A stretch of DNA of 64,000 nucleotides from Caenorhabditis elegans (Eukaryota > Nematoda > Chromadorea > Rhabditida > Rhabditidae): positions 12,462,001-12,526,000 of the forward strand of contig NC_003282.8 in the NCBI RefSeq assembly GCF_000002985.6, given 5' to 3'. The notes under the pieces are model-generated. The model searched no databases, was not told where the DNA came from, and saw nothing but the letters and a program-made list of their open reading frames with translations. This document shows positions 6,670 to 53,538 of this stretch, one piece after another; within the stretch, counting starts at the first letter, position 1; each line of letters starts with the position of its first letter. The position numbers and the translations under genes were made by a program.

Positions 6670-8188
6670 ATGATGAGGTGGCGTCTAGCCGTCCTCTTTC
6701 TGACGCTTCTGGCGTCAACCACCGGAGACGATACGACCACGAAGGCTTCGGTTTCAACTACAACGAAAAAAGGAACCGATGGCCCACACTTGACGACCGA
6801 TGACGAGGGATTTTTGACTGTAATCCAGGGATTTGCAACTCAGCTTCAGTGCGTCTTGAATACATGCTCAAAGGATGTGATTTGGTACAAGGATGGATCT
6901 CAAATATCCAAAGGATCACAATTCTTGAATACAACTTCAGAGAAAGCCTACAAAATTCAACATTCGATAGAAGTTGATTACGAAAAAGGATGTTCTGGAG
7001 AATGTGACGATTCGAAGCCATGTGGGGATGGCTTCTCGTGTGTTGACAATCAATGTTGCTCGTGCCGGAGAGAGGAGTTTACGTTGGTGCTTCGTAATCT
7101 CACATTTGACGAGTCGGGTAGATATCGGTGTCAATTGGGCAATAAATCCGAACTGCTCGAGTTTCAAGTGGAAGTTCTTGGTGAGTTTTTGAAATTAAAA
7201 TTCAAAGAAAATTTGTTATTTCGGTATGATAATCCAACATGTATTCGAGAAAAAAACAAAAAAAAAGCGTTTTTGTTTTCAATTCGGCTCATTTCCCTTT
7301 TCTACAAAAATTAAAAGTTCATAATTATGGACCAATCAGCAATTCGCTCCACCAACTTTTCAACCAATAAGCATCTTCGGGCTCCGCACAATCTTTCTGA
7401 TTGGTCCAAAAGTTGGCTGAGCCAATCGTTAATTGGTAACGGTTGTCATTTTGGAGGGATTTCAAAATTTAAAATTTTCATTCTTGCTAACTTTTCCATT
7501 TTCCGTTTGTGTAATTTCTCTATTTTTTTTTGACAATTTGGGGTATTTTAAAGCAAAACAAAATATTCACGATCCACTTTTAAATTAAAAAAATTATTTG
7601 GCAAAGGCCGGTTTTCCAGGTTTTCACTTGAATTTTCGGTTTTAAAAGTTGGATTATTATGTTAAAATATGTAGTTTAGTAGATTTGAAGCAATACTCTG
7701 GATATTTTTTTCCTGATTCAATTTTAAAACTCAATATTTCAGAATCCGGACTAAAGGGTGGTTTCCATGAGAACATCTCATATGACCATTCAGAATGTTG
7801 TCAAGAAAAAGGAATTTCTCCGCTATGCCGTGGAATGTGTAAACCCTCGGAAATGGACCAGCACCATTTCGACCCAACAAGCTGCAAAACCGATGACTAC
7901 AAACATTTCCTGTCCTGTGCCACAGAAGACGGAACTCGTTCTCATGTTCATTGCTGCAAGACTCAGCTCGTTCCGAGCTTCTGCTACGATTTCTGCTCGG
8001 GAGACTTCCAGATGCTCCGTCGATCACATCGTCTCTGCCTCTACTATCTTCCAGAGATATTCTCGTGTTTGGATCGTGCCTACCGTATGTTGTCCAACGA
8101 AAAAGGGGGTGTATCCTCGGCTCGTGGTGGTGCTGGTGGAGCCGCCCATCTTTCTGCTTTTATGATTGACAAACCTGTCCGTGGATAG
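6670..8188 (+). CDS. igdb-1: Candidate short secreted isoform of igdb-1, 318 aa
   Basis: If intron 2 is not spliced at 8085, exon 2 stays open for 104 more bases. It adds a Gly/Ala/Ser-rich tail ending MIDKPVRG and stops at 8186-8188, giving 318 residues with only the signal peptide, Ig domain and first DB module. A canonical AATAAA follows at 8281. The read-through segment is clearly richer in G and C than the rest of the intron, which argues that it is used. This would be a membrane-free form; the frame and signal are visible, but use is inferred. Confidence 0.5.
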
Positions 8189-11100
8189 AGAACCCTCTTC
8201 TTCTCTCTTATTTTGTTGTACATTCCAATCTGTTTTCGGTCCTTTTTCTTTGTTTTGCATGTTGATAGTGTGTCCCTCAGAATAAAAGTCCCTGCATGTT
8301 TTCGTTCAGATCATCCCAAATGGAAGAGGCAGCACAGAAATGAGATCTACGGGATGAAGATTTAATCACGCTTTTCTCGATTTTCTTTTTGCAGATCTAC
8401 GTTTCCTAGATCTTATTTTTGTGTTACCTCAAACGAATCACGATAGACCGGCTCTACTTTGACAGCTCATAACTTGATTTTATTTGATTTTAACCAAACT
8501 CACTATCGAAATATAGGAAAATCTTTGGAACATATTTTATATGTCGAAATTTTTTTGATAAAACCAAAGACAACCGTGATATAAGCTGCGAAAGTAGAGC
8601 AATTTCAGAATTAAAGAATTGAAATTGAGAAACTTTAAAAAAAAAGTGCATGCAGCTTGATAATAACATTTTCAATTTTCTAATCACTTTTTTTCAGTGC
8701 CGTATCCTGATCCGCCGACAGCAATTGAAGTGAATGCTGTGGAGCACGATAAGCTATCCGTATGCTGGAAAGAGCCGGAAAAGCACGAGTCGAATAAGAT
8801 GTTCCCGATTCTCGACTATGCAGTTTATTTCAAAGAAATTCCCAATTTCCCATTACTCGGCGGTGATATGTAAGTCAATTATTTTACTGTACCTATAACA
8901 TTTTTTTGACAATTTGCAGGGGTCTTCCTTTGTTAACTGGAGACTATTCGGACATTGGGGATATTCAGGAAGACGATTATCAACAGGAGGAAGATGACGC
9001 GGAAGAAGTTGTCAAAGACTCGACGATTGCACCACGTGGAAAACGAGATGTCGACTTTGAGTCTGATGGAGTCAAGGTTCAGATTCGTGAGAAGCGATCT
9101 ACAATGGTTATTGTGACCAGAGATGATGTGACGAATTCGACGACGATTCGCGAGTTTGCGTTCCAAAATGTTAATACCACAGAAAGATGTGTCACTTTAT
9201 CGGATCTACGATCATCGACAAGATACATTGTCTACGTGACTGCTAGAAATGAGTACGGTACTAGTGTTCCGTCGGTTCGAAACATTGCATCTACCAACGT
9301 TCATATGGTCAAGAACAATGCGAGTTTGCCAGACTCGATGAGTAAGTATTCTTTTAAATTTCTTTCAAGATCAAGCTGAACCATCTGACATGTCTACTCC
9401 ACTTAAATTCCAACTTTAAATTTTTGCAGAATGTTGCACTGATGCAAATGTCACCTCGTTCTGTTCATCAAAAATGTGCAATGTCGCAGAAGATCCATCT
9501 TCATTCTCGACCATCACAATCGCCACTACTTGCCGTGCCGAATGGCCAAAAGTGTCTCCCTGCATTGCCGACGGCCGGAACCATACTGATTGTTGTCTGA
9601 AGAAGGGCGTACAACACGATTGCCTTGAAATTTGTTCGGGAAGCACAAAAGAACTCGGTGTGCATTCAGTTCTTTGCCTCAATCTTGATCTTCAAGCAAT
9701 CTATCAATGCATCAGACAAGGCTATGAGACACATCCATCTGCACCTGGGAATGTGACGATTTCGGAGTTAACAGCTCACAGCGTGACTGTTCAGTGGACT
9801 GAGCCTAATTCAAATGCACATCTCGTCGAGAACTACACACTTTTTATTCGGAAAAATGAACACGGAGAAGCTGTCCGAACAGTGAAGAACGTAATTTCAC
9901 CACATGTTGAACTTGGATTGGATCCAGATTCCGAGTACGTTCTTACTCTTCAATCTCATTCCGCTAATGGTACATCTCTACCTTCAACTGCAAAATTGTT
10001 CTCAACACTTCCAACAACTCGTCCTCCATTGTGCACAATTGGGGAACCAATCTACATGAATGATGGTCGTGTCATGATTTGCGATGCTGTGAATCCTTGT
10101 CCAAATGGATTCAGATGTACTGGAGCTGGTTCTGATCTTTCATATTGTTGCCCACACGATGGAACTCATTCGTCGGAAGAGTTCACTTCCTGTTGTAAGG
10201 AACAGAAAATGCCAGAAAGCTGTATGAGCAGTTGCCAATACAACATGACGCTTCCCGAGAGTTGCAAGGAAAATCTGAATACTTGGGTTCAATGTGCTTC
10301 TGAAGGTCATGATCATTTAAGATGCTGTCTGCAAGAAGAAGTTTCAAAACCATGCCAAACCGCTTGTATGCATCCATTTACTGTACCAGCAGATGAATGC
10401 TTTAGTGAAGTTTCAAAGTATAGAACATGCTTCAGTGCTGCCCATCAAGCCCTTCCAGCCGCTGTCAGGAATGTGGAAGTATCTTCTATCAGCAAGGATT
10501 CCGCGACAATTTCCTGGGAAGATCTCGAAGCGAACATCATTGTTTTCCGTGTTCAATTATTTGAAAAAGGAGGAAATTTGATTAAGACGGAGAACAGTTC
10601 TGCAGACATTTTCCGATTCATTGATCTAGAGCCTAACAAGGATTATTCTGTTCGCGTTACTGCCATCAATTTTTTGGGAGAAGGTCCACCATCATGGAAT
10701 GCTACCTTCACAACCAAGCCGGCGCAGATTTATGAAGGAGATCGACCAGTTGCTCCAGAAAAGCTCAGAATCTCATGGAATTCAGGACCACGCGTAAACG
10801 TCACCTGGGACCCTGTCTCAGTCCGTCGTAACGCTGAAGTGGTGACCAAACCGATTGAGTACACCATTTACTACTTGGATACAGAGCAAAGCTCTACATG
10901 GACAACGTTGAGGACCAATCAAACTTGGGTTGTGATGAGAGATCTTCGCAAAGATGCACTGTATTATGTCTACGTAACAGCAAAGGAAGACAATCGTACC
11001 AGTCGTAGTTCATCAATAATAACTATTCTTGCTCAAAAAGACTCTCCAGGACTTCCAGAGCCAACAATTGTCATTGAACCGGATCACAAGGATGGAGTGT

Positions 11101-12889
11101 TTTCTCCTGGAGAAAAGATTTCCATTAATTGCTCCTTGCCGAACATCAAGAAGCATCTCAACATCGATCTGACTGTAGGATCACATGTCGTGCAAAATGA
11201 TCATGGTGCACTGTGGGTTATCCTGGAAACTGAAGCAGACGAGGCAATGGACACTGCTACCTGTGCTGTATCGGACACCGACGGTCGTCAGCATGTTGCT
11301 ATGAAGCATCTGGTGTTGGAGAGAAAGGCGTCAGTTACGATGAAGAAGGACAAGATCCGTGTGTTGGATGATCAGTCTGTGGAAATTGAGTGTATCTATC
11401 GAGGTGGAGGTCTTGATCCGAAGATTTCATTCGAGAAGGATGGAAAGAAGGCATCACGGGGATTCTTGAACCTGAAGAAGACTGAAGCTGGATACGTGGC
11501 CAAGTGGCATGTAAGTTAAAATTGTTTTCAAACCCTCTTCAAAATGAACTCTGGAAAAATTCTAAAAATTGAAAAAACTTCAAAAATATTGAGCCTGATC
11601 CGTTTCTCACCTTTATCAATTATGTATATCTCAGCTGCCTTTTGTTTTATCAAACACTTGTTAGCTAGAAAATTCCTTTTCAGCTCTGTCTCAACTGTTT
11701 TGTAGTTGAAAATTTATTGATAAACTAAAAATTAACTTTTCAGATCCGCAAAGTTAAGCAAGAAGATGCTGGATTCTACAAATGTGTGGTCACTTCTAGT
11801 GATGGTTCTCGAGTTGAGGCATCGTCCGAAGTCATTTTCTCCACTGAAACACTTCCAGTCAATCCAAAACTCATTCTCCAATGCTGCGAAGACGAGGGAA
11901 TCACTGGAGATTGTCTGCAAGCTTGCAACATTGGACGTACATCACTTTCAATCAAAAATCAAAATTGTACTCGTTTCGCTGTCTCACTTCTCAAGTGCGC
12001 ATCAGACATTCGTGATCATTCTGATTGTTGCATCGCGAGCGGTGTCACATCGAAATGCCTTCCACTGTGCTCTGGAGATAGCTTCTCTCCGGATATTGAC
12101 TGCTCCGAACACGCGGTTTCTATCATGACATGCTCTGTGAAGAGTCATGAGCATGCTCCATCAGAAGTCAGTAATGTTCGTATCAAGGCATCAGAAGGAA
12201 AAGTCAACATTGAATGGGATTATCCACTTACGAAAGACTATAAATATTTTGCTGTCTACTATCGAAAAGCTCACGATGACCACGAGGATTGGCACAAGTT
12301 GAAGACTATTCAGCAGAATGTGAGTATTTTTTTGTAAATTATAATTAATTGAAAAACTATTATTTCAGATCGAACTCGACGTGGATCCTTCCGAAGATTA
12401 TGAAGTTGGAATCCTCGCAGCCAACGCGCTCGGTCACAGCAGACTGATGTATTCCGCGATTCCTAAGGATTCCGAACCTCGACGATCGGCTTCAAAGGGA
12501 TCTTCCTCTGCTTTCTGGATTGTTGTAATTCTTGTAGTCTTTGGAGTCTTGATTGCGGGATTAGCTGTTCTGAGCAAGCGACGCGAGCTTCCATATCCAA
12601 TTGGAAAGTTTATTGGAAGAAGAAATGACCCGAATCAGCCGACTGTTGCATTTGAAAATCCAGCTTACGGAGAGCCCTGGGGCGGTAAGAAGATATCTTT
12701 TTTTTTCTAAAAAATAACTTTTTTTCAGGAGCCGAAGTTGAAATCCGAGGATTAGGTGGCTCAGCCACAACTGGAACAGCTGCTGCAACCCAATCTGAAT
12801 GGCAAAGTGCCAACCTCGAAGCGAACAGTACAACTGATAACAGCCACGAGTACCGAAACGGCATGAGATATGCTAAACTTGAGACCTAA
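6670..12889 (+). CDS. igdb-1: Ig / DB / fibronectin III type I membrane protein, 1526 aa
   Basis: Eight exons (6670-7180, 7743-8084, 8698-8869, 8920-9341, 9430-11510, 11744-12319, 12369-12684, 12729-12889) join in frame to 1526 residues. The product is probably a cell-surface adhesion or receptor protein. In order it has: a signal peptide (residues 1-20), an Ig domain with a Cys-rich insert, a nematode DB module with CC pairs (about 175-285), an FN3 domain with an acidic insert, a second DB module, FN3, an EB-like Cys-rich stretch plus a third DB module, two FN3 domains, two Ig-like domains, a fourth DB module and an FN3. It ends with one transmembrane helix (FWIVVILVVFGVLIAGLAVL) and a cytoplasmic tail. 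A TTTTCAG acceptor lies 5 bases before the first ATG and may be a trans-splice site. The symbol is recalled from the domain mix. The sequence from 9470 on recurs at 17007. Confidence 0.85.
7331..7442. repeat. Inverted CCAAT-containing repeat in igdb-1 intron 1
   Basis: GACCAATCAGCAATT near 7331 is answered by CTGATTGGTCC near 7398, and CCAACTTTT by AAAAGTTGG. The result is a hairpin with several CCAAT/ATTGG boxes. Similar CCAATCA-plus-CTCCGCCCA sequence occurs in intron 1 of the sru genes at 34611 and 40622, so this is a dispersed family. Confidence 0.6.
8281..8286 (+). terminator. Poly(A) signal AATAAA in igdb-1 intron 2
   Basis: A canonical AATAAA followed by a T/G-rich stretch lies 93 bases after the stop codon of the short igdb-1 frame. 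It is well placed for cleavage of the short transcript, upstream of exon 3 at 8698. Confidence 0.5.
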
Positions 12890-13309
12890 TTATTTACTAT
12901 TTATAATTATTTTTTCTCTACTTCCTACCACATTTTTTCTCAACAGTTTCATTTTCAATTTCTTGTCCTATAAGATATCTGACATTCCATGTAATCTTAT
13001 TTCTGTTCCATAGTCACCACCATTTTCCTTGTGTATTTGTGTGATTCAGTTGTGCGTGTTTTGACTTTTTGCGGGTCGATGTTCATTTTCTTTTTTTCTA
13101 TACACTCATTTTTGCAAATTTTGACAACATTTCGGTTTTCTACTTGTCTGCAATTTTTGAATATTTGATTGTATTTATTTTACATAAATTCATTTACGTT
13201 TCAATTGAGGGGTGTAGACTTTTTGTTAGAATTTTTCTAGAATGACATTTTGCATAGAGAAAATTTGATACCTTTCTAAAGAAATCATGTTTATTTAAAT
13301 TTCAAGTTA

Positions 13310-15042
13310 TCAGTAAAATGTCGGTTCATCTAATGTAATCTCTCCTCTAAGTACAGTGACAGATGGTCCATTTAATATAACTCGTCCATCGTGGAAGCTT
13401 AAACGGAACAGACCTCCTCGAGTTGGATATGCCTGGAATATTAAGGACGATTAAAAAACCTTTAAAAAGCCATGTGCCCAGATAAACTCACTTGAAATGC
13501 ATATAGCGACTTTTTTCCCGTTATCTTTGACCAAAAGGGACCCATTGCACATTGTGCATGCCCTGTTGCTGGATCCTCATTTATTCCAACCCAAGGAGCA
13601 AAGTAACGACAAGCATAGTCAAATGGTTCATCAGAAGAATCGGTGAATCCTTGAATTAATGCATTCTTCGGTCTCAACGTCAATGCAATTCCTTGTAGAA
13701 AACCGTTATCGTGAATTTGAAGCATTCGTGTAACATCGATTTTAACTGCTTCCAATTCAAATTTTGTTGTAAGAGGATCTACTACGACTACCAAGACTCG
13801 AGGTTTCGCTGCGTACACGCAAGCTTCGATTGCCATCTGAAGTACAAGATTTCGAATTTCCAGTGGAATTTTTGCTGTCTGATACATTATTTTCCATATA
13901 ACTGTTCTATTACTGGATCTAAATCAGTGCAAATTGCACACAAAAGTTACGGTATCCACTCTAGCCACGAGTTTAAGAATTCAATAAATATGTAGACTAT
14001 TTTGAAACCTTATTTAGTTTTTCATAACAAATAACTCAAAGAACATTCAATTGATAAAAAATTTTCGCAACGCACTCTAATCTCAAAGCATTTCAAGTTT
14101 ACTATCTCTACGTGATTTTCTTCTAGTTCAAAATATCACAAACCTCAGTTGGAACCACACACTTTACAATATCAAATAGGAAATGCGGCGCCTTGAATTC
14201 AGAGAAAATCCCATGAAGTGGGTTCACTGTGTGATGAAACTTGATAGACGTCAAATCATATTCGGGCAAATTCAGCTCAACATTTCCGATACTATCCCTT
14301 CTCACAACCAATAATCCTGTCAGTGTGTCAAACTTGAGCTCCTTATTCTCATTTCCAATTTCATTGAATAACACGTGTGAAGTGGCAAGTGTCGCGTGAC
14401 CACACAATGGAACTTCGGCAGTTGAAGTGAACCAGCGAAGGGAAAAATGAGCACATTTCTTGTAGTCTGATGAGCCAATTGGAACTGGAAATGCTGTTTC
14501 AGAGACATTGAATTCGGCAGCTATTTTTAAGTATTCGTCATCCTTTTTTGCCTGGAAATTTGGAATAATCTAGTTGGTACTAACTTGAGCAAGGCTATTC
14601 AAAGGGGCCCGTATTTCGCCCGGAAAACGCCTCCGATGAAGTAAAATGGATCGGAAAATTGCATGCTATTTCTCTAAAAGTCAGGAAAAATTTTTCTAAT
14701 TTTATTTCCAGAACCATATTTAATAACATTTAAAATTTAAGCTATTTTTCAACTTTTCAAAACAGTTTCTACGACGTATTTATTGCCGTCGAGTACTTTT
14801 TCAAATGAATCAAATAAAATAATTTTCCGGTAGAAACTTATAGTTTGCTTTCAAAATTCTATCTTTTTAATCCATTACAATGTAAAAGTTATTTTAAATA
14901 CATATTTCATACTCACCATCTATATTAGAAAAATAAAACTTTTGGGACCTACCTGTGGTATAAGACAAACCGCAGCTGGATTTCCAGAAAATCTCTTCTT
15001 TGCAAAAGCATCGACAATGTACGAAGGATAGTGTTCAGTCAT
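13310..15042 (-). CDS. PhzF-like isomerase family protein, gene 1, unit 1 (321 aa)
   Basis: Exons 15042-14953, 14551-14144, 13836-13492 and 13432-13310 join in frame to 321 residues. The family (PhzF / PBLD, diaminopimelate-epimerase fold) covers cytosolic isomerases of mostly unknown substrate in animals. Visible motifs are VDAFAKKRFSGNPAAVC at the N-terminus with SETAF following (the family's catalytic Glu region), LCGHATLA in the first half, and DPATGHAQC in the second. The last differs from the usual DPATGSAQC of its neighbour, with His for Ser. It lies 330 bases downstream of PhzF gene 2 on the same strand, so an operon is possible. It converges on igdb-1 with 420 bases between the stops. 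In this unit the native promoter of the pair is absent. Confidence 0.9.
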
Positions 15043-15372
15043 CTGTGACAACGTGTCGAATGGCTAATGAAATTCCAAATAAACGTCGTTTGCCAAAAGA
15101 AGTGAAAAAAGGAAAAAGATGAAGGACATGGGGTCAACAGTTGGTCTTGTAAAGGTGGAAAACATGTGAAAAGAAAATGAAAAGAAGGGGTTGTAGTGGT
15201 TGTGATTGTGTTGTTGCAGATTCTTTATACGTTTGGAAATTTGTTTGAAAGTACTTTGGAAATGGGAGAAATGTGAAATGAGAAGATAAATTTATTGATA
15301 GTCATCAAAAATCAAAAACTTTGAGGGTGGAGTAGAGTTCTTGGGAATTTTACTTCAAATTCATATTGAAAA

Positions 15373-17000
15373 TTAGTTCAACGCAAGCTCTCCCCGGAGC
15401 ACTGTGACAGAAGGTCCGTTCAAAATCACACGGTCATCTTGAAGACGAATCCTGAATTGAGCTCCTCGAGTTGGAAAAGCCTACAAATCAAAATTATCAT
15501 TGAAAAAGCTCCATAATGATAATTACCTGAAAAGCATACAACTCGTTCTTCCCGAGCATCTTCGACCAGAACGGTCCCATAACACATTGCGCAGATCCAG
15601 TTGCTGGATCCTCATCGATTCCAACCCACGGAGCAAAATAACGGCATGCATAGTCATATGGTTCATCAGAAGAATCCACAAATCCTTGAGCCATTGGATT
15701 TGATGGACGAAGAGAAATGGCAAGGCCCCTTACAAAACTTCCATCGTGAATCTCGAGCATTTTTGAGCAATCAATGCGAACGGCTTCAAGTTCAAATTTG
15801 GTGGTTTCTGGATCCACAATGACGATTAGTTTGCGAGATTTTGAAGAGTACACCACTGATTCGATAATCATCTGAAATATGAGCTGATTGAAAAAGAAGG
15901 GACTGGATTACGATTTTTAAACGTGCATTTTTTGGATTTTCAGATGTAAAATTCCAGTTTTTCAGTAATAAATTTTAAGACGGTTGGACAATAATTTTCA
16001 TACTTGAATTTATTTTAGACGAAAAGTTTCATGCTTTCAGGTATAGATTTACAAAAATTTTGACGTATGTTATCAGATTTTCAGACACAAATTTCAGATT
16101 TACACACGTCAATTTCCTGGTTTTCAGGAGGAATTTTCCAGGTTTGTTGTCGTAAATGTTCAGATTTTCAGAATAAAATACTTTTCACGAAAAATTATCG
16201 GAATAAGGCCTGCCTGCCTGCCTCGTGCCTACCACATTGCATGAACACCAAACACCGGAGTTCTAGCTAGGAAGGCACTTAAGCAGGTAGGCAGGCACTA
16301 CCACACATACCCAATAAAACTACAAAAATTCACCTCAGTTGGAACAACGCACTTGATAACTTCAAACAGGAATGATGGTGCTTCGAACTGAAATTTCAAT
16401 TTTCTCGAAAAGACTTTTGAAATATTTTATAAAATATTACCTCCGAAAAAATGCCCTGCAATGGATTTGGGGTATCATTGAACTTCACTGACGCCAAATC
16501 GTATTCGGGAAAATTCATCTCCACATTTCCTTTTTCATCTCTTTTTGCAATCAAAACTCCGGATTGGGTATCGAATTTAATCTCCTTATTCACATTTCCA
16601 ACTTCATTGAACAGAACGTGTGACGTTGCAAGAGTTGCGTGACCACACAACGGAACTTCAGTTTTTGGAGTAAACCAGCGTAGGGAAAACTGAGAGCAAG
16701 TCTTGAAGTCAGTTGAACCAATTGGAACTGGAAATGCTGTCTCGGAGAGATTGAATTCGGCAGCGATTTTCAAATACTCTTGGTCTTTAAAAACCTGGAA
16801 ATAAAACTAAAACAATGATTAAAGATGGAGTGTCATCATTGGAAATTATAAATCAATTATTTTTAATTAAATACAAACCATATACTATGGTCCAAATTAT
16901 TACTAATTACCTCTGGAATAAGACAAACTGCTGCAGGATTTCCTGCAAAACTCTTAGTTGTAAATGCATCAACTATGAAAGACGGAAATTTTCTCGACAT
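15373..17000 (-). CDS. PhzF-like isomerase family protein, gene 2, unit 1 (316 aa)
   Basis: Exons 17000-16911, 16794-16441, 16387-16334, 15871-15527 and 15480-15373 join in frame to 316 residues. It carries the family marks NPAAVC near residue 21, SETAFPVP, LCGHATLATSHV, and DEDPATGSAQC followed by MGPFWSKM. It is a paralogue of gene 1, which has lost the intron between the second and third exons. The duplication junction falls exactly in its 5' acceptor: read on the minus strand, TTTTTTTTCAG directly precedes the ATG. Beyond that the sequence is antisense igdb-1 exon 5. The coding region is intact, but its native upstream DNA is present only at the copy ending at 24537. Confidence 0.9.
16206..16300. 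repeat. CCTGCCTG-type repeat in a PhzF intron (copy at 23743-23837)
   Basis: GCCTGCCTGCCTGCCTCGTG is followed about 70 bases later by the inverted GCAGGTAGGCAGGCAC. The same CCTACCTGCCT motif recurs in this window near 25853, 26148-26212, 58489 and 63812-63965. It is a dispersed nematode repeat with no coding content. Confidence 0.7.
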
Positions 17001-17010
17001 CTGAAAAAAA

Positions 17011-20000
17011 ATGTGCAATGTCGCAGAAGATCCATCTTCATTCTCGACCATCACAATCGCCACTACTTGCCGTGCCGAATGGCCAAAAGTGTCTCCCTGC
17101 ATTGCCGACGGCCGGAACCATACTGATTGTTGTCTGAAGAAGGGCGTACAACACGATTGCCTTGAAATTTGTTCGGGAAGCACAAAAGAACTCGGTGTGC
17201 ATTCAGTTCTTTGCCTCAATCTTGATCTTCAAGCAATCTATCAATGCATCAGACAAGGCTATGAGACACATCCATCTGCACCTGGGAATGTGACGATTTC
17301 GGAGTTAACAGCTCACAGCGTGACTGTTCAGTGGACTGAGCCTAATTCAAATGCACATCTCGTCGAGAACTACACACTTTTTATTCGGAAAAATGAACAC
17401 GGAGAAGCTGTCCGAACAGTGAAGAACGTAATTTCACCACATGTTGAACTTGGATTGGATCCAGATTCCGAGTACGTTCTTACTCTTCAATCTCATTCCG
17501 CTAATGGTACATCTCTACCTTCAACTGCAAAATTGTTCTCAACACTTCCAACAACTCGTCCTCCATTGTGCACAATTGGGGAACCAATCTACATGAATGA
17601 TGGTCGTGTCATGATTTGCGATGCTGTGAATCCTTGTCCAAATGGATTCAGATGTACTGGAGCTGGTTCTGATCTTTCATATTGTTGCCCACACGATGGA
17701 ACTCATTCGTCGGAAGAGTTCACTTCCTGTTGTAAGGAACAGAAAATGCCAGAAAGCTGTATGAGCAGTTGCCAATACAACATGACGCTTCCCGAGAGTT
17801 GCAAGGAAAATCTGAATACTTGGGTTCAATGTGCTTCTGAAGGTCATGATCATTTAAGATGCTGTCTGCAAGAAGAAGTTTCAAAACCATGCCAAACCGC
17901 TTGTATGCATCCATTTACTGTACCAGCAGATGAATGCTTTAGTGAAGTTTCAAAGTATAGAACATGCTTCAGTGCTGCCCATCAAGCCCTTCCAGCCGCT
18001 GTCAGGAATGTGGAAGTATCTTCTATCAGCAAGGATTCCGCGACAATTTCCTGGGAAGATCTCGAAGCGAACATCATTGTTTTCCGTGTTCAATTATTTG
18101 AAAAAGGAGGAAATTTGATTAAGACGGAGAACAGTTCTGCAGACATTTTCCGATTCATTGATCTAGAGCCTAACAAGGATTATTCTGTTCGCGTTACTGC
18201 CATCAATTTTTTGGGAGAAGGTCCACCATCATGGAATGCTACCTTCACAACCAAGCCGGCGCAGATTTATGAAGGAGATCGACCAGTTGCTCCAGAAAAG
18301 CTCAGAATCTCATGGAATTCAGGACCACGCGTAAACGTCACCTGGGACCCTGTCTCAGTCCGTCGTAACGCTGAAGTGGTGACCAAACCGATTGAGTACA
18401 CCATTTACTACTTGGATACAGAGCAAAGCTCTACATGGACAACGTTGAGGACCAATCAAACTTGGGTTGTGATGAGAGATCTTCGCAAAGATGCACTGTA
18501 TTATGTCTACGTAACAGCAAAGGAAGACAATCGTACCAGTCGTAGTTCATCAATAATAACTATTCTTGCTCAAAAAGACTCTCCAGGACTTCCAGAGCCA
18601 ACAATTGTCATTGAACCGGATCACAAGGATGGAGTGTTTTCTCCTGGAGAAAAGATTTCCATTAATTGCTCCTTGCCGAACATCAAGAAGCATCTCAACA
18701 TCGATCTGACTGTAGGATCACATGTCGTGCAAAATGATCATGGTGCACTGTGGGTTATCCTGGAAACTGAAGCAGACGAGGCAATGGACACTGCTACCTG
18801 TGCTGTATCGGACACCGACGGTCGTCAGCATGTTGCTATGAAGCATCTGGTGTTGGAGAGAAAGGCGTCAGTTACGATGAAGAAGGACAAGATCCGTGTG
18901 TTGGATGATCAGTCTGTGGAAATTGAGTGTATCTATCGAGGTGGAGGTCTTGATCCGAAGATTTCATTCGAGAAGGATGGAAAGAAGGCATCACGGGGAT
19001 TCTTGAACCTGAAGAAGACTGAAGCTGGATACGTGGCCAAGTGGCATGTAAGTTAAAATTGTTTTCAAACCCTCTTCAAAATGAACTCTGGAAAAATTCT
19101 AAAAATTGAAAAAACTTCAAAAATATTGAGCCTGATCCGTTTCTCACCTTTATCAATTATGTATATCTCAGCTGCCTTTTGTTTTATCAAACACTTGTTA
19201 GCTAGAAAATTCCTTTTCAGCTCTGTCTCAACTGTTTTGTAGTTGAAAATTTATTGATAAACTAAAAATTAACTTTTCAGATCCGCAAAGTTAAGCAAGA
19301 AGATGCTGGATTCTACAAATGTGTGGTCACTTCTAGTGATGGTTCTCGAGTTGAGGCATCGTCCGAAGTCATTTTCTCCACTGAAACACTTCCAGTCAAT
19401 CCAAAACTCATTCTCCAATGCTGCGAAGACGAGGGAATCACTGGAGATTGTCTGCAAGCTTGCAACATTGGACGTACATCACTTTCAATCAAAAATCAAA
19501 ATTGTACTCGTTTCGCTGTCTCACTTCTCAAGTGCGCATCAGACATTCGTGATCATTCTGATTGTTGCATCGCGAGCGGTGTCACATCGAAATGCCTTCC
19601 ACTGTGCTCTGGAGATAGCTTCTCTCCGGATATTGACTGCTCCGAACACGCGGTTTCTATCATGACATGCTCTGTGAAGAGTCATGAGCATGCTCCATCA
19701 GAAGTCAGTAATGTTCGTATCAAGGCATCAGAAGGAAAAGTCAACATTGAATGGGATTATCCACTTACGAAAGACTATAAATATTTTGCTGTCTACTATC
19801 GAAAAGCTCACGATGACCACGAGGATTGGCACAAGTTGAAGACTATTCAGCAGAATGTGAGTATTTTTTTGTAAATTATAATTAATTGAAAAACTATTAT
19901 TTCAGATCGAACTCGACGTGGATCCTTCCGAAGATTATGAAGTTGGAATCCTCGCAGCCAACGCGCTCGGTCACAGCAGACTGATGTATTCCGCGATTCC

Positions 20001-20426
20001 TAAGGATTCCGAACCTCGACGATCGGCTTCAAAGGGATCTTCCTCTGCTTTCTGGATTGTTGTAATTCTTGTAGTCTTTGGAGTCTTGATTGCGGGATTA
20101 GCTGTTCTGAGCAAGCGACGCGAGCTTCCATATCCAATTGGAAAGTTTATTGGAAGAAGAAATGACCCGAATCAGCCGACTGTTGCATTTGAAAATCCAG
20201 CTTACGGAGAGCCCTGGGGCGGTAAGAAGATATCTTTTTTTTTCTAAAAAATAACTTTTTTTCAGGAGCCGAAGTTGAAATCCGAGGATTAGGTGGCTCA
20301 GCCACAACTGGAACAGCTGCTGCAACCCAATCTGAATGGCAAAGTGCCAACCTCGAAGCGAACAGTACAACTGATAACAGCCACGAGTACCGAAACGGCA
20401 TGAGATATGCTAAACTTGAGACCTAA
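17011..20426 (+). pseudogene. 5'-truncated copy of igdb-1
   Basis: Exons at 17011-19047, 19281-19856, 19906-20221 and 20266-20426 copy igdb-1 exons 5-8. The copy begins inside exon 5. An in-frame TGA (17002-17004) lies just before the first ATG, so the longest product would be 1029 aa. It would have no signal peptide, N-terminal Ig or first DB module, but would keep the FN3, Ig, DB and transmembrane parts. Its start lies 10 bases from the divergent ATG of PhzF gene 2, leaving no room for a conventional promoter. The frame itself is undamaged. It is most likely non-functional, or makes a mis-sorted fragment if transcribed. Confidence 0.85.
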
Positions 20427-20846
20427 TTATTTACTATTTATAATTATTTTTTCTCTACTTCCTACCACATTTTTTCTCAACAGTTTCATTTTCAATTTCT
20501 TGTCCTATAAGATATCTGACATTCCATGTAATCTTATTTCTGTTCCATAGTCACCACCATTTTCCTTGTGTATTTGTGTGATTCAGTTGTGCGTGTTTTG
20601 ACTTTTTGCGGGTCGATGTTCATTTTCTTTTTTTCTATACACTCATTTTTGCAAATTTTGACAACATTTCGGTTTTCTACTTGTCTGCAATTTTTGAATA
20701 TTTGATTGTATTTATTTTACATAAATTCATTTACGTTTCAATTGAGGGGTGTAGACTTTTTGTTAGAATTTTTCTAGAATGACATTTTGCATAGAGAAAA
20801 TTTGATACCTTTCTAAAGAAATCATGTTTATTTAAATTTCAAGTTA

Positions 20847-22579
20847 TCAGTAAAATGTCGGTTCATCTAATGTAATCTCTCCTCTAAGTACAGTGACAGA
20901 TGGTCCATTTAATATAACTCGTCCATCGTGGAAGCTTAAACGGAACAGACCTCCTCGAGTTGGATATGCCTGGAATATTAAGGACGATTAAAAAACCTTT
21001 AAAAAGCCATGTGCCCAGATAAACTCACTTGAAATGCATATAGCGACTTTTTTCCCGTTATCTTTGACCAAAAGGGACCCATTGCACATTGTGCATGCCC
21101 TGTTGCTGGATCCTCATTTATTCCAACCCAAGGAGCAAAGTAACGACAAGCATAGTCAAATGGTTCATCAGAAGAATCGGTGAATCCTTGAATTAATGCA
21201 TTCTTCGGTCTCAACGTCAATGCAATTCCTTGTAGAAAACCGTTATCGTGAATTTGAAGCATTCGTGTAACATCGATTTTAACTGCTTCCAATTCAAATT
21301 TTGTTGTAAGAGGATCTACTACGACTACCAAGACTCGAGGTTTCGCTGCGTACACGCAAGCTTCGATTGCCATCTGAAGTACAAGATTTCGAATTTCCAG
21401 TGGAATTTTTGCTGTCTGATACATTATTTTCCATATAACTGTTCTATTACTGGATCTAAATCAGTGCAAATTGCACACAAAAGTTACGGTATCCACTCTA
21501 GCCACGAGTTTAAGAATTCAATAAATATGTAGACTATTTTGAAACCTTATTTAGTTTTTCATAACAAATAACTCAAAGAACATTCAATTGATAAAAAATT
21601 TTCGCAACGCACTCTAATCTCAAAGCATTTCAAGTTTACTATCTCTACGTGATTTTCTTCTAGTTCAAAATATCACAAACCTCAGTTGGAACCACACACT
21701 TTACAATATCAAATAGGAAATGCGGCGCCTTGAATTCAGAGAAAATCCCATGAAGTGGGTTCACTGTGTGATGAAACTTGATAGACGTCAAATCATATTC
21801 GGGCAAATTCAGCTCAACATTTCCGATACTATCCCTTCTCACAACCAATAATCCTGTCAGTGTGTCAAACTTGAGCTCCTTATTCTCATTTCCAATTTCA
21901 TTGAATAACACGTGTGAAGTGGCAAGTGTCGCGTGACCACACAATGGAACTTCGGCAGTTGAAGTGAACCAGCGAAGGGAAAAATGAGCACATTTCTTGT
22001 AGTCTGATGAGCCAATTGGAACTGGAAATGCTGTTTCAGAGACATTGAATTCGGCAGCTATTTTTAAGTATTCGTCATCCTTTTTTGCCTGGAAATTTGG
22101 AATAATCTAGTTGGTACTAACTTGAGCAAGGCTATTCAAAGGGGCCCGTATTTCGCCCGGAAAACGCCTCCGATGAAGTAAAATGGATCGGAAAATTGCA
22201 TGCTATTTCTCTAAAAGTCAGGAAAAATTTTTCTAATTTTATTTCCAGAACCATATTTAATAACATTTAAAATTTAAGCTATTTTTCAACTTTTCAAAAC
22301 AGTTTCTACGACGTATTTATTGCCGTCGAGTACTTTTTCAAATGAATCAAATAAAATAATTTTCCGGTAGAAACTTATAGTTTGCTTTCAAAATTCTATC
22401 TTTTTAATCCATTACAATGTAAAAGTTATTTTAAATACATATTTCATACTCACCATCTATATTAGAAAAATAAAACTTTTGGGACCTACCTGTGGTATAA
22501 GACAAACCGCAGCTGGATTTCCAGAAAATCTCTTCTTTGCAAAAGCATCGACAATGTACGAAGGATAGTGTTCAGTCAT
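20847..22579 (-). CDS. PhzF-like isomerase family protein, gene 1, unit 2 (321 aa)
   Basis: Exons 22579-22490, 22088-21681, 21373-21029 and 20969-20847 are the exact counterparts of the gene at 13310-15042, and the protein is the same. It includes the unusual DPATGHAQC. This copy lies 330 bases behind the PhzF gene 2 copy that keeps its native upstream region, so it is the likelier expressed allele of the two. It converges on the truncated igdb-1 copy. Confidence 0.9.
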
Positions 22580-22909
22580 CTGTGACAACGTGTCGAATGG
22601 CTAATGAAATTCCAAATAAACGTCGTTTGCCAAAAGAAGTGAAAAAAGGAAAAAGATGAAGGACATGGGGTCAACAGTTGGTCTTGTAAAGGTGGAAAAC
22701 ATGTGAAAAGAAAATGAAAAGAAGGGGTTGTAGTGGTTGTGATTGTGTTGTTGCAGATTCTTTATACGTTTGGAAATTTGTTTGAAAGTACTTTGGAAAT
22801 GGGAGAAATGTGAAATGAGAAGATAAATTTATTGATAGTCATCAAAAATCAAAAACTTTGAGGGTGGAGTAGAGTTCTTGGGAATTTTACTTCAAATTCA
22901 TATTGAAAA

Positions 22910-24537
22910 TTAGTTCAACGCAAGCTCTCCCCGGAGCACTGTGACAGAAGGTCCGTTCAAAATCACACGGTCATCTTGAAGACGAATCCTGAATTGAGCT
23001 CCTCGAGTTGGAAAAGCCTACAAATCAAAATTATCATTGAAAAAGCTCCATAATGATAATTACCTGAAAAGCATACAACTCGTTCTTCCCGAGCATCTTC
23101 GACCAGAACGGTCCCATAACACATTGCGCAGATCCAGTTGCTGGATCCTCATCGATTCCAACCCACGGAGCAAAATAACGGCATGCATAGTCATATGGTT
23201 CATCAGAAGAATCCACAAATCCTTGAGCCATTGGATTTGATGGACGAAGAGAAATGGCAAGGCCCCTTACAAAACTTCCATCGTGAATCTCGAGCATTTT
23301 TGAGCAATCAATGCGAACGGCTTCAAGTTCAAATTTGGTGGTTTCTGGATCCACAATGACGATTAGTTTGCGAGATTTTGAAGAGTACACCACTGATTCG
23401 ATAATCATCTGAAATATGAGCTGATTGAAAAAGAAGGGACTGGATTACGATTTTTAAACGTGCATTTTTTGGATTTTCAGATGTAAAATTCCAGTTTTTC
23501 AGTAATAAATTTTAAGACGGTTGGACAATAATTTTCATACTTGAATTTATTTTAGACGAAAAGTTTCATGCTTTCAGGTATAGATTTACAAAAATTTTGA
23601 CGTATGTTATCAGATTTTCAGACACAAATTTCAGATTTACACACGTCAATTTCCTGGTTTTCAGGAGGAATTTTCCAGGTTTGTTGTCGTAAATGTTCAG
23701 ATTTTCAGAATAAAATACTTTTCACGAAAAATTATCGGAATAAGGCCTGCCTGCCTGCCTCGTGCCTACCACATTGCATGAACACCAAACACCGGAGTTC
23801 TAGCTAGGAAGGCACTTAAGCAGGTAGGCAGGCACTACCACACATACCCAATAAAACTACAAAAATTCACCTCAGTTGGAACAACGCACTTGATAACTTC
23901 AAACAGGAATGATGGTGCTTCGAACTGAAATTTCAATTTTCTCGAAAAGACTTTTGAAATATTTTATAAAATATTACCTCCGAAAAAATGCCCTGCAATG
24001 GATTTGGGGTATCATTGAACTTCACTGACGCCAAATCGTATTCGGGAAAATTCATCTCCACATTTCCTTTTTCATCTCTTTTTGCAATCAAAACTCCGGA
24101 TTGGGTATCGAATTTAATCTCCTTATTCACATTTCCAACTTCATTGAACAGAACGTGTGACGTTGCAAGAGTTGCGTGACCACACAACGGAACTTCAGTT
24201 TTTGGAGTAAACCAGCGTAGGGAAAACTGAGAGCAAGTCTTGAAGTCAGTTGAACCAATTGGAACTGGAAATGCTGTCTCGGAGAGATTGAATTCGGCAG
24301 CGATTTTCAAATACTCTTGGTCTTTAAAAACCTGGAAATAAAACTAAAACAATGATTAAAGATGGAGTGTCATCATTGGAAATTATAAATCAATTATTTT
24401 TAATTAAATACAAACCATATACTATGGTCCAAATTATTACTAATTACCTCTGGAATAAGACAAACTGCTGCAGGATTTCCTGCAAAACTCTTAGTTGTAA
24501 ATGCATCAACTATGAAAGACGGAAATTTTCTCGACAT
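22910..24537 (-). CDS. PhzF-like isomerase family protein, gene 2, unit 2 (316 aa)
   Basis: Exons 24537-24448, 24331-23978, 23924-23871, 23408-23064 and 23017-22910 repeat the gene at 15373-17000, with the same protein. Upstream of the ATG the minus strand reads TTTTAATTTTCAG, a normal nematode acceptor (SL trans-splicing or an intron). It is followed by about 1 kb of intergenic DNA unique to this copy, which should contain the original promoter. It is therefore taken as the functional parent of the pair. Confidence 0.92.
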
Positions 24538-24978
24538 CTGAAAATTAAAATTTAGAAATGAAGTAATTATAGAAGTTTGGCAGTTGTGTAGTGAATTTGA
24601 AAACTTGAAAAAAATAAAGTGCTTCAAGATGTTGACATTTAACTAGTTGTACCGATGAACAAAAAACAAAAAATATATATAAGGAGAAGAAAGATGACAA
24701 CACAACAGTCACGTTTCTCTATCTCTTCGTCTGAATCGGAAAAGGATACTTCTTATCAGAAAAATCTAATAAACCTTTCTAAGGTGATATCGGGTCAAAA
24801 ACATAGAGTTGAAACCAGTTGATTGAAATATTATGAAAAATATGCATATCAGGGTGGACGGCAATTCAAAGTTTTGGCAATTTTATAATTCGGCCGAAAA
24901 TTTAAAATTATAGATAATTTGAAAACTTGGCATTTGCCGATAGTCAAAAATAATACAACTCGGTGAATACGTGAATAC

Positions 24979-28797: not shown

Positions 28798-33140
<4,343 letters not shown>

Positions 33141-38413: not shown

Positions 38414-38510
38414 AATATGTACAGTGATGTTTTACGAAAATAGTGCAAATTTAAATAAAACTGCTTCTACTTCATCCATAAAAATTTGTCTAATTATACA
38501 GCATACCCAC

Positions 38511-38668
38511 AATAAAGTACTATGTATTACCGTATACAATAAAGTACTATGTATTACCGTATACAATAAAGTACTATGTATTACCGTATACAATAAAGTA
38601 CTATGTATTACCGTATACAATAAAGTACTATGTATTACCGTATACAATAAAGTACTATGTATTACCGC
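38511..38668. repeat. Tandem repeat, 27 bp, six copies
   Basis: The unit AATAAAGTACTATGTATTAC-CGTATAC begins at 38511, 38538, 38565, 38592, 38619 and 38646, and the last copy diverges at its end. The copies are identical otherwise. Each contains AATAAA, AGTACT and GTATAC. The array lies 98 bases after the stop of the sru gene ending at 38413, so it could act as a cluster of poly(A) signals for that gene. The period is a multiple of three, which creates spurious open frames on both strands. Confidence 0.95.
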
Positions 38669-47828: not shown

Positions 47829-50165
47829 CAGTGTGGGAAAGTTCTATAGGACCCCCCCTAATTTGAAGGTTTGAGGAACTTCCGAAAATTTTTTCGAAAA
47901 ACTGCTAATGCCGTTCGTTTTTAAATTGAAAAAAACCTATATACATTTTTTTCCAGAAGTTTATCTCAAAAACTGAGGTCGCGCTGGAAAAAACGTCAAA
48001 ATCCAGTGTGAAACTTCTATAGGACCCCCCGTTTTTTTTCACGATTTTTACTAAAATCAACAGATTTTGGAATTTTTGACAAAGCTCAAATCAAGTTTGA
48101 GTTAGAAATGAGTTCAGATAAGCAGTTTTGACTTTAAAAAATTAATACGAAATGTTCTCGTGGGATCTCCAGACTGGTTCTGATTCTTCCGATCTTTGAT
48201 GTTCAAGTCTGTTTCAAGCTTCCTGGTGCTCTCGGTAATGCCAAAACTTGATAAACTCTCTTTAACAAGTTCCTACTAAAATTCCTAGCACGCACTTTAG
48301 ATGTTTCGACTGTGTAGTCAAGCTGATTTGGCAAAATATGCAGCAGGAAACAATGGAAGGCTTATCAGGAATCAAATCGTTTTTCTTTGATTACAAGGTT
48401 CCATGGGACCAATATTTCAAGTTAAATTGTCCCTCACAGATGTTATTTACTATTTTTTGCGTGAATTATTAAATGTGGAATTGTGGCATGTGTTGTGGCA
48501 CACATATAGAGGCTGGAAAGCTTACTTCGAAAGCAGTCTAACTTGCAATGCCTCGAGGATCTGCCCTTTCGGACACTGAACGCGCTCAGCTGGATGTTAT
48601 GAAATTGCTCAATGTGTCCCTGCATGAAATGAGTAGGAAAATTTCCCGTTCTCGACACTGTATTCGCGTGTATCTGAAGGATCCGGTGAGCTACGGTACA
48701 TCTAAAAGAGCTCCTCGTCGCAAAGATCTCTCCGTGCGTGACGAACGAAATGTGATTCGTGCTGCCTCCAACTCCTGTAAGACGGCAAGAGATATTCGCA
48801 ATGAGCTTCAATTGTCTGCTTCAAAAAGGACCATCCTCAATGTCATCAAACGATCTGGTGTAATCGTTCGTCAGAAACTTCGCCCTGCTCCGTTACTCTC
48901 TGCAGACCATAAACTCAAGCGATTGGAATTTGCTAAGAACAATATGGGAACGAATTGGAGTAAAGTGAGAATTTAAAAAAGCAAGAGTGAATAATTAGGA
49001 TCATTGTTTTAGGTTGTCTTCTCCGATGAAAAGAAATTCAATCTCGATGGGCCTGACGGTTGCCGCTACTATTGGCGCGATTTGCGCAAGGAACCAATGG
49101 TTTTTTCGAGACGTAATTTTGGAGGAGGAACGGTGATGGTTTGGGGAGCGTTCACGGAGAAGAAGAAGCTTGAGATACAGTTCGTCAGTAGCAAGATGAA
49201 CAGCACTGACTATCAGAACGTCTTGGAACTGGAGCTCTCCAAATATCTTCGTCACTACTCCAGAAAAGACTTTAGATTTCAGCAGGATAATGCGACAATC
49301 CATGTGAGCAACTCAACCCGCGACTATTTCAAGCTCAAGAAGATCAACCTTCTTGATTGGCCAGCTCGAAGTCCTGATCTCAATCCAATCGAAAATTTGT
49401 GGGGGATTCTTGTCCGTATCGTGTATGCTCAGAACAAGACTTACCCAACAGTTGCATCGTTGAAGCAAGGAATTCTCGACGCTTGGAAGTCTATTCCGGA
49501 CAACCAGCTGAAAAGTTTGGTCAGATCAATGGAGGACAGACTGTTTGAGATCATCCGCACACAAGGAAACCCGATTAACTATTGATCCTTTCTTGATTTT
49601 AGTATATGAATGTTCTGTTGTTGATCAAAAATAACTGCAACTTGTTAATACGCTGTTTCTGACTGGTTTCTTGGGGATGGCGTAAAAATGTTTATGGTGT
49701 GTGTGCTAGGAATTTTAGTAGGAACTTGTTAAAGAGAGTTTATCAAGTTTTGGCATTACCGAGAGCACCAGGAAGCTTGAAACAGACTTGAACATCAAAG
49801 ATCGGAAGAATCAGAACCAGTCTGGAGATCCCACGAGAACATTTCGTATTAATTTTTTAAAGTCAAAACTGCTTATCTGAACTCATTTCTAACTCAAACT
49901 TGATTTGAGCTTTGTCAAAAATTCCAAAATCTGTTGATTTTAGTAAAAATCGTGAAAAAAAACGGGGGGTCCTATAGAAGTTTCACACTGGATTTTGACG
50001 TTTTTTCCAGCGCGACCTCAGTTTTTGAGATAAACTTCTGGAAAAAAATGTATATAGGTTTTTTTCAATTTAAAAACGAATGGCATTAGCAGTTTTTCAA
50101 AAAAATTTTCGGAAGTTCCTCAAACCTTCAAATTAGGGGGGGTCCTATAGAACTTTCCCACACTG
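47829..50165 (+). mobile_element. Tc3: Tc3 transposon, apparently complete (2,337 bp)
   Basis: The element starts CAGTGTGGGAAAGTTCTATA and ends with the complement, flanked by TA on both sides (47827-47828 and 50166-50167), the target duplication of the Tc1/mariner family. The terminal inverted repeats are about 463 bp (47829-48291 and 49703-50165). A second copy of the end sequence lies 173 bp inside (48004-48030, GTGTGAAACTTCTATAGGAC), matching the two transposase binding sites known for Tc3. Total length is close to the 2,335 bp I recall. Both ends and the transposase gene look intact, so the copy may be mobilisable. Confidence 0.97.
48548..49585 (+). CDS. tc3a: Tc3A transposase, 329 aa
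   Basis: Two exons (48548-48964 and 49013-49585), split by a 48-nt intron, give 329 residues, the normal Tc3A length. The N-terminal bipartite helix-turn-helix (MPRGSALSDTERAQLDVMKL, then SRKISRSRHCIRVYL) binds the inverted repeats. The DDE catalytic region shows VFSDEKKFN, FQQDNATIHVS and NPIENLWG, carrying the three acidic residues of a DD34E transposase. The frame has no break. The enzyme cuts and pastes the surrounding element at TA sites; in C. elegans soma and germline its activity is usually limited by silencing. Confidence 0.96.
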
Positions 50166-52080: not shown

Positions 52081-53538
52081 GAAATCTTCCCAGGACAGTT
52101 CGCACCATCTGTTTCACATCGATTTATCAAAGAGCTTGAAACATCTGGTCGTCTTCTTCGAAACTACACTCAAAATATCGATACATTGGATCAGACTGTA
52201 GCATCAGACTGTAATTAAAAGAGTTGTAGAATGTCATGGATCCTTTTCAAAATGTACATGTACACGCTGTGGACAACGATATGATGGGAATGAGATTCGT
52301 GAGGAAGTTCTTGATATGCGTGTTGCCCATTGCAAAGTTGTCAAGGAGTCATCAAACCGAATATTGTATTCTTTGGAGAGGATCTCGGAAGAGAATTTCA
52401 TCAACATGTTACAGAAGACAAGCATAAAGTAGATCTTATTGTAGTGATTGGATCTTCTCTAGAAGTTCCACCAGTTGCATTAATTCCTCATTGTGTTGAT
52501 AAGAATGTTCCACGAATTCTAATCAACAGAGAATCCCTCCAACATTATAATGCGGATATTGAATTGCTCGGAAATTGTGATGGCACCATCAGAGATATCT
52601 GTTTCAGTCTTGGAGGCTCCTTCACTGAACTGATTACATCTTATGATTCAATTATGGAACAACAAGGAAAATCGAAATCACAAAAGCCTTCACAAAACAA
52701 ACGACAGCTTATTTCACAGGAAAACTTTTTGAATATATGTATGAAAGAGAAGAGTAATGATGATTCGAGTGATGAGCCAACATTGAAGAAACCGAGAATG
52801 TCGGTCGTTGACGATTTGATGGATTCCGAGAAGAATGATTTCCAGGAAATACAAAAGCATAAGTCAGAAGATGACGATGATGCACGGAATTCGGACGCTA
52901 TCCTAAAGAAAATAAAGCATCCAAGGCTGCTGAGCATTACTGAGATGCTCCATGACAATAAGTGTGTTGCGGTGAGTAGTTTTGGAAATTAAAAAGTCAA
53001 AAGTTAGAAAATATTTCTAAACAACCTACCCTACCAGCCTTACAACTAATAATTTTTTGTTCAGATTTCTGCTCATCAAACTGTCTTTCCTGGGACTGAA
53101 TGCTCATTTGATCTAGAAACGTTGAAACTAGCTCGTGATGTTCATCACGAGAAACATTGCGAAAGCTCGTGTGGTTCGTATTGATCATCAAATGCCGATT
53201 CAGAAGCAAATCAATTGTCTAGAGCACAATCGCTAGATGACTTTGTACTATCCGACGAGGTTAGTTCATCATTTAAAAAACTTTCTTGAGGTGCTCTTAA
53301 AAGTATCGAAAGAAAAATTGAAAATGTAAAGCTGCAGATCAGTTTTTGAAATTTTAAACACTACCTCTGCCATTTCTGCCAACACCTATCTATAAATCAT
53401 TAATTACAGGATCGAAAAACACGATACATCTGGACTTGCAACGAGCCGATTCATGTGATGGAGATTTTCAGTATGAACTATCTGAAACGATTGATCCTGG
53501 AACATTCTCGCATTTGTGTGAAGAAATGCGTATTTGAA
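52081..53538 (+). pseudogene. Broken copy of the Sir2-type deacetylase gene sir-2.1
   Basis: After an acceptor at 52080 the sequence encodes EIFPGQFAPSVSHRFIKELE, LRNYTQNIDTLDQT, HGSFSKCTCTRCGQRYDGNE, GVIKPNIVFFGEDLGREFHQ and DLIVVIGSSLEVPPVALIPH. These are the NAD-dependent sirtuin core with its zinc site. The acidic C-terminal tail follows, ending CEEMRI at 53538. All are nearly identical to SIR-2.1 as I recall it. Damage includes loss of every 5' exon, extra duplicated bases at the join near 52190-52215, a one-base loss after HCK near 52336, a TAT/TGA stop near 53180 and another frame slip near 53420. The intact stretch 52330-52992 encodes no full catalytic domain. Confidence 0.88.

Follow-up and report, generated by a model that had tools for sequence, protein, structure and literature searches.

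A 64,000-nucleotide stretch of chromosome IV of Caenorhabditis elegans (contig 4:12,462,001-12,526,000; hereafter the window) contains a 7,537-bp unit twice, in abutting and head-to-tail arrangement. The two copies are identical to the last base, with 0 mismatches over 7,537/7,537 bases in a direct base-by-base comparison of 9470-17006 with 17007-24543. We consider it likely that the pair is a genuine, single and recent tandem duplication in the sequenced N2 lineage. The relevant features, in window coordinates, are listed below.

6670..12889, plus strand: igdb-1, complete gene, its 3' part inside copy 1 (hand-built model).
9470..17006, plus strand: copy 1 of the 7,537-bp unit (0/7,537 mismatches against copy 2).
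13310..15042, minus strand: PhzF-2, copy 1, whole 321-aa CDS plus 330-bp upstream spacer (gene model; PF02567).
15373..17000, minus strand: PhzF-1, copy 1, whole 316-aa CDS (gene model; PF02567).
17000..17013, no strand: region of the junction 17006/17007, with the PhzF-1 start (minus strand) 6 bp leftward and an in-frame igdb-1 ATG (plus strand) at 17011.
17007..24543, plus strand: copy 2 of the 7,537-bp unit (0/7,537 mismatches against copy 1).
17011..20426, plus strand: igdb-1 fragment in copy 2, about 1,030 codons (copy comparison and gene model).
20847..22579, minus strand: PhzF-2, copy 2 (copy identity and gene model).
22910..24537, minus strand: PhzF-1, copy 2, identical CDS, with the original upstream region retained (24544 onwards).

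A preliminary description of the window had noted an apparently identical tandem duplication of 7.5 kb at 9470-24543, carrying part of igdb-1 and two PhzF genes, and had proposed the alignment reported above. The alignment was run and gave no differences, all coordinates proved exact, and the content was borne out as roughly the 3' two thirds of igdb-1 on the plus strand and a PhzF pair on the minus strand. At an offset of 7,537 the run of identity covers 9470-17007 (7,538 positions), so that a single A could belong to either side of the break; beyond this run identity ends abruptly in both directions, the outside flanks being unrelated. Chance is far too weak to explain a match of this length. 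At 7,537 bp and 100% identity, and with abutting, head-to-tail copies, the pair is a tandem segmental duplication in the sense of Vergara et al. (>1 kb, >90% identity, neighbouring copies).

The genome (100,286,401 bases, 7 contigs) was searched with pieces of the unit and with a probe for the junction. Each of the two pieces (4,107 and 3,430 bases) matched at 100% in at least two places, both at this locus, and neither had a third near-identical place among the genome matches listed. Elsewhere in the genome, again among the matches listed, the igdb-1 piece gave short matches of 92-111 bp alone, and the PhzF piece gave a diverged relative at about 4.32 Mb on contig 5 (72-77% identity). A 221-bp probe crossing the junction occurred whole in the genome once; as would be expected of a tandem pair, each half had a further match at an outer edge.

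The left break is 40 bp inside the igdb-1 exon starting at 9430, which leaves about 494 codons before it in the shortest gene model and up to about 532 in the longest. Across 24 versions of the N-terminal part, where the splice sites are uncertain, the predicted protein ranges from 1,524 to 1,562 aa, and it carries DB, fn3 and Ig domains as well as a transmembrane helix judged by eye. The name igdb-1 was taken over from the preliminary description; Ig and fn3 domains are described in a filarial relative of igdb-1 and igdb-2 in the text available from PMC10187950. Since the left break cuts an exon, copy 2 holds only a fragment of igdb-1, which opens at the in-frame ATG at 17011 and lacks the signal peptide, the igdb-1 promoter and, according to which model is used, roughly 494-532 residues at the N-terminus. 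This 3' fragment is probably non-functional.

The two PhzF genes were modeled by hand with worm-like splice sites, and both match PF02567 over its full length (profile positions 1-281/281), PhzF-1 with 177.4 bits and PhzF-2 with 161.9 bits against a curated cut-off of 27 (E-values 5.8e-52 and 3e-47). A genome search with the family returned 10 exon-level matches, eight of them in the four gene copies described here and two on contig 5. The latter sit close together, and one of them has an in-frame TGA when read without introns. PhzF-1 and PhzF-2 are identical at 224/321 aligned positions and differ at 53/101 shared fourfold sites, and, as judged by this divergence, they form a tandem pair older than the 7,537-bp duplication.

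PhzF-2 is complete in both copies of the unit, each time with its 330-bp spacer. The right break, on the other hand, falls 6 bp upstream of the PhzF-1 start codon, and the CDS of PhzF-1 in copy 1 is thus intact while its upstream DNA from -6 has been swapped for an antisense igdb-1 exon. In copy 2 the original upstream sequence of PhzF-1 ends in TTTTAATTTTCAG, directly followed by the ATG; at the junction in copy 1 the corresponding sequence ends in GCACATTTTTTTTCAG. Both resemble worm (trans-)splice acceptors.

A splice-acceptor-like TTTTTTTTCAG directly precedes the ATG of PhzF-1 in copy 1, and an open minus-strand frame spans the junction (16863-17228). One reading of these features would be that the junction created a new, functional version of the gene, in which copy-1 PhzF-1, now preceded by antisense igdb-1 sequence, is expressed in a new pattern and is possibly extended at its N-terminus. 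We give this reading a very slight chance; if it were true, the duplication could be a laboratory-selected change in N2.

The preliminary description had also presented the block as a natural gene-dosage variant, a proposal that fails for igdb-1, whose extra copy is without N-terminus and promoter, and may stand for PhzF-2 and, at most, for the CDS of PhzF-1. Neither igdb-1 nor PhzF-1, given the upstream region of the latter in copy 1, gains a complete extra gene with promoter. The dosage of igdb-1 is therefore expected to be unchanged, with one whole gene and one 3' fragment. In the case of PhzF-2 the duplication possibly supplies an extra gene copy with promoter, and its dosage would be doubled if the 330-bp upstream spacer suffices. 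PhzF-1 in copy 1 is expected to rely on new or read-through transcription, and its dosage would be doubled only if some other region drives transcription of that copy. Should PhzF-1 and PhzF-2 share an operon, the original promoter would be missing from both genes in copy 1.

The breakpoints were inspected for traces of the event. At the junction the two ends overlap by one base, with no insert. The outer breakpoints share no repeat: the longest exact match between the two regions (600 x 600 bp) is 9 bp and lies away from the breaks, and we therefore rejected a flanking repeat as the cause. By our own estimate a shared word of 9 bp is about what chance would give. When the two 1-kb flanks were each scanned alone, short direct repeats and weak inverted repeats were found, none of them terminating at a break. 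NAHR would be expected to leave a direct repeat shared by the junction and the two outer breakpoints; none was found in these regions, and the published table entry for this pair (see below) has 'NO' under transposons.

The lack of a shared breakpoint repeat, together with the one-base overlap, fits end joining better than unequal crossing-over. A one-base overlap without insert is compatible with TMEJ-like joining without being diagnostic of it, and a single base is too small an overlap to name a pathway. As described in the consulted text of PMC8654963, a single base pair is often enough for polymerase-theta joining in C. elegans. The route that we regard as most likely would start from an intermediate, possibly of failed replication or of recombination, whose ends were joined with almost no homology, e.g. 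by a polymerase-theta-type reaction; crossing-over between flanking repeats would not have been the route. Around the right break there are also weak A+T-rich inverted repeats with arms of 14-25 nt that are 72-86% complementary. They resemble the setting described, in the portion of the literature at hand, for duplications in helq-1 mutants, which suggests that another route is also possible, but they deserve little weight in A+T-rich DNA.

The proposal that the event is very young is supported by the complete lack of differences, which extends to the final base at each edge. If mutations arise at 2e-9 per site per generation, as assumed here, 0 differences in 7,537 bp would place the 95% upper bound of the age at about 1e5 (about 99,000) generations, and the approximately 2,530 non-coding bases alone would place it at about 296,000 generations. 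Perfect identity could also have been kept in an old duplication by gene conversion or unequal exchange, as homogenisation of tandem repeats is possible, and the locus does have a history of duplication in that the PhzF pair in each unit is older. However, identity shows no decay toward the edges, and the older PhzF-1/PhzF-2 pair was left unhomogenised. We accordingly hold this explanation to be most improbable.

An artefact would itself yield perfect identity, and zero differences cannot tell an artefact of clone propagation from a young event. In this case the worm would carry one copy, and the second would stem from a mis-joined clone overlap or from rearrangement of a cosmid in E. coli. 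The only PCR check that the available text of Vergara et al. describes covered the largest of their pairs (PMC2728738). Against a misjoin stands the sequence at the breaks, which is not GATC, the nearest GATC being 22-23 bp inside the unit. Sau3AI and MboI sites were used in making worm cosmids, and a misjoined clone overlap at such a site was rejected, the breaks being without GATC. In addition, shotgun assembly tends to collapse perfect repeats rather than to expand them.

A further argument comes from the neighbouring genes. A RecQ-type helicase gene, recognised from its motifs by eye, starts 4.3 kb beyond the right end of copy 2, and we take it to be him-6. In the literature as available, igdb-1 is T04A11.3 (PMC10751425) and him-6 is T04A11.6. 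With these genes on either side, both seemingly named for cosmid T04A11, the junction should fall inside one clone, and a misjoin of overlapping clones is hard to fit. This argument rests on gene names and on the reading of the helicase as him-6, and rearrangement of the cosmid clone itself is possible. The preliminary description had left an assembly artefact as an option; the gene names on both sides and the lack of GATC at the breaks make it the less likely one, and we now rate it as unlikely overall, although not to the degree of long-term gene conversion. Structural variants are reported to be up eightfold in him-6 mutants, but nothing links the position of the helicase gene to the duplication event.

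We infer that the tandem duplication is physically present in N2 stocks. A strain polymorphism, which the preliminary description had also raised, is possible; a laboratory-derived polymorphism, present in some N2 stocks only, would be a sub-case of a recent duplication in the N2 lineage and does not exclude it. A duplication on chromosome V is present in 29/76 N2 stocks and absent from CB4856, according to the text of PMC2728738 at hand, and zero differences permit an origin of the present pair within laboratory time. The upper bound of about 1e5 generations, on the other hand, equally permits an origin in the wild, and we put the chance of a laboratory-derived polymorphism among N2 stocks at slightly under even.

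The practical consequences are those of any perfect repeat. For the PhzF genes, and for igdb-1 where it is duplicated, the reference offers two identical targets to any reads, probes, guide RNAs and RNAi, and pipelines restricted to uniquely mapped reads would be expected to forfeit the signal over the 7,537-bp block. The arrays of Maydan et al. 2010 left out probes with non-unique 20-mers, and recent N2 duplicates are, according to the portion of that paper available, probably among the unrepresented genes (PMC2822765). Because of this exclusion, that survey should be blind to the block. If the duplication is polymorphic among N2 stocks, it would be one more hidden difference between laboratories. 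Overall, its value is that of a modest practical warning for work on igdb-1, PhzF-1 and PhzF-2.

The pair itself has been published before, a point absent from the preliminary description. Table 2 of Vergara et al. 2009 (BMC Genomics 10:329, PMC2728738) holds 31 tandem segmental duplications, and row 4 gives IV:12471444..12478970 / IV:12478981..12486507 with 7,527 matches, forward orientation, three genes each and transposons 'NO'. Addition of 26 to the two published starts gives 12,471,470 and 12,479,007, i.e. 9470 and 17007 in the window, and the spacing is 7,537 in both data sets. The shift presumably reflects an assembly revision. From the constant shift and the equal spacing it follows that the published row is the present duplication, and its existence and size have thus been known since 2009. 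This independent listing also speaks for a genuine duplication. The published row agrees with our description in being head-to-tail, with three genes per copy and no transposon, but its ends stop 10 bp short of the true ends, and the accessible text of the paper offers nothing on this pair beyond the row, with neither breakpoint anatomy nor promoter loss nor genotyping. The breakpoint anatomy given here, with no shared repeat, a one-base overlap and the identity of the cut genes, is new detail.

Among the 31 rows of Table 2, as available, there are 20 whose matches equal both lengths, and the present pair is the longest of these. We dropped a claim that no perfect tandem pair in the genome is longer, as two listed pairs, those on X and at 13.13 Mb on IV, proved longer than printed once their DNA was read. 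The DNA was compared for the present pair and for four of the other 30 pairs. A pair on chromosome X (9.4 kb, head-to-tail) has 5 mismatches and 3 gaps, and a pair at 13.13 Mb on IV (5.6 kb, head-to-tail) has 1 mismatch. An inverted pair at 5.24 Mb on IV matches over at least 4,522 bases at 99.978%, and for a pair at 1.25 Mb on III, set among short tandem repeats, the best alignment covers 6,727 bases at 98.766%. With other near-perfect head-to-tail pairs in the genome (those on X and at 13.13 Mb on IV), the class is an ordinary one. These two are slightly more diverged than the present pair, although counts this low are no proof that the ages differ.

A preprint on N2 and CB4856 lineages (PMC10634987) neither supports nor refutes the pair. 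Its available text does not name the pair; two duplications are given as differences between its assemblies of N2 and CB4856, with the largest on III, and copy gains are tallied apart from losses. The lengths of its N2 chromosome IV (17,493,838) and of the reference one (17,493,829) agree to within 9 bp, an agreement that we do not count as evidence since it may stem from a reference-guided step.

A comparable case is the largest pair of Vergara et al., of 108 kb on chromosome V, which is the only one for which the accessible text gives genotyping (PMC2728738). Like the present pair it is near-identical and head-to-tail, lies in the N2 reference and has its junction within genes. In contrast to the 7,537-bp unit, for which no flanking repeat was found between the breakpoint regions, the 108-kb pair is flanked by Cemar1 and is ascribed to unequal crossing-over; it is also polymorphic in N2 stocks and has formed a chimeric gene with EST support. 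With respect to size and junction, comparison can be made with duplications in repair mutants. As far as the consulted text of the two reports goes, the tandem duplications of helq-1 mutants measure about 100 bp to 10 kb and have single-base-type junctions (PMC8654963), and those of brc-1 brd-1 mutants measure 1.6-500 kb with a median of about 12 kb (PMC8078821). These duplications arise in mutants, whereas the 7,537-bp unit sits in the wild-type reference, but its size falls within both ranges and a junction with minimal homology is common to both.

The junction between the two copies of the tandem duplication (17006|17007) is spanned by an open frame on the minus strand (16863-17228), in which an antisense exon of igdb-1, the plus-strand gene with its 3' part duplicated, is joined in frame with exon 1 of PhzF-1. 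Judged from sequence, this could possibly represent a fusion confined to copy 1.

Other features of the window were as follows, the helicase and transposase frames being judged by eye:

28798-32350, plus strand, RecQ-type helicase reading frames, beginning 4.3 kb to the right of the duplication
38509-38667, tandem repeat, 27-bp unit, 5.9 copies, 100%
48542-49582, plus strand, Mariner/Tc-like transposase reading frames
52315-52989, plus strand, sirtuin-like frame

By eye, we take the helicase to be him-6/BLM (T04A11.6), and the sirtuin-like frame is presumably sir-2.1. One of the PhzF genes (13310-17000 / 20847-24537) may be T04A11.1, which PMC10959373 places in the metabolism group of genes up-regulated under over-active HIF-1.

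Elsewhere in the genome, three further near-identical pairs were found:

chromosome X, 225632-235043 and 235048-244460, 9.4-kb tandem pair, nearly abutting, 99.915% identity
chromosome IV, 13128136-13133736 and 13133728-13139328, 5.6-kb tandem pair, one mismatch, copies overlapping by 9 bases at the join
chromosome IV, 5241000-5245520 and 5250223-5245702, inverted pair, at least 4.5 kb, 99.978% identity, arms separated by a spacer of about 180 bp

Compared with the lengths printed in Table 2 of Vergara et al. (PMC2728738), the 9.4-kb pair is twice as long, and for the 5.6-kb pair the printed length is 3,579.
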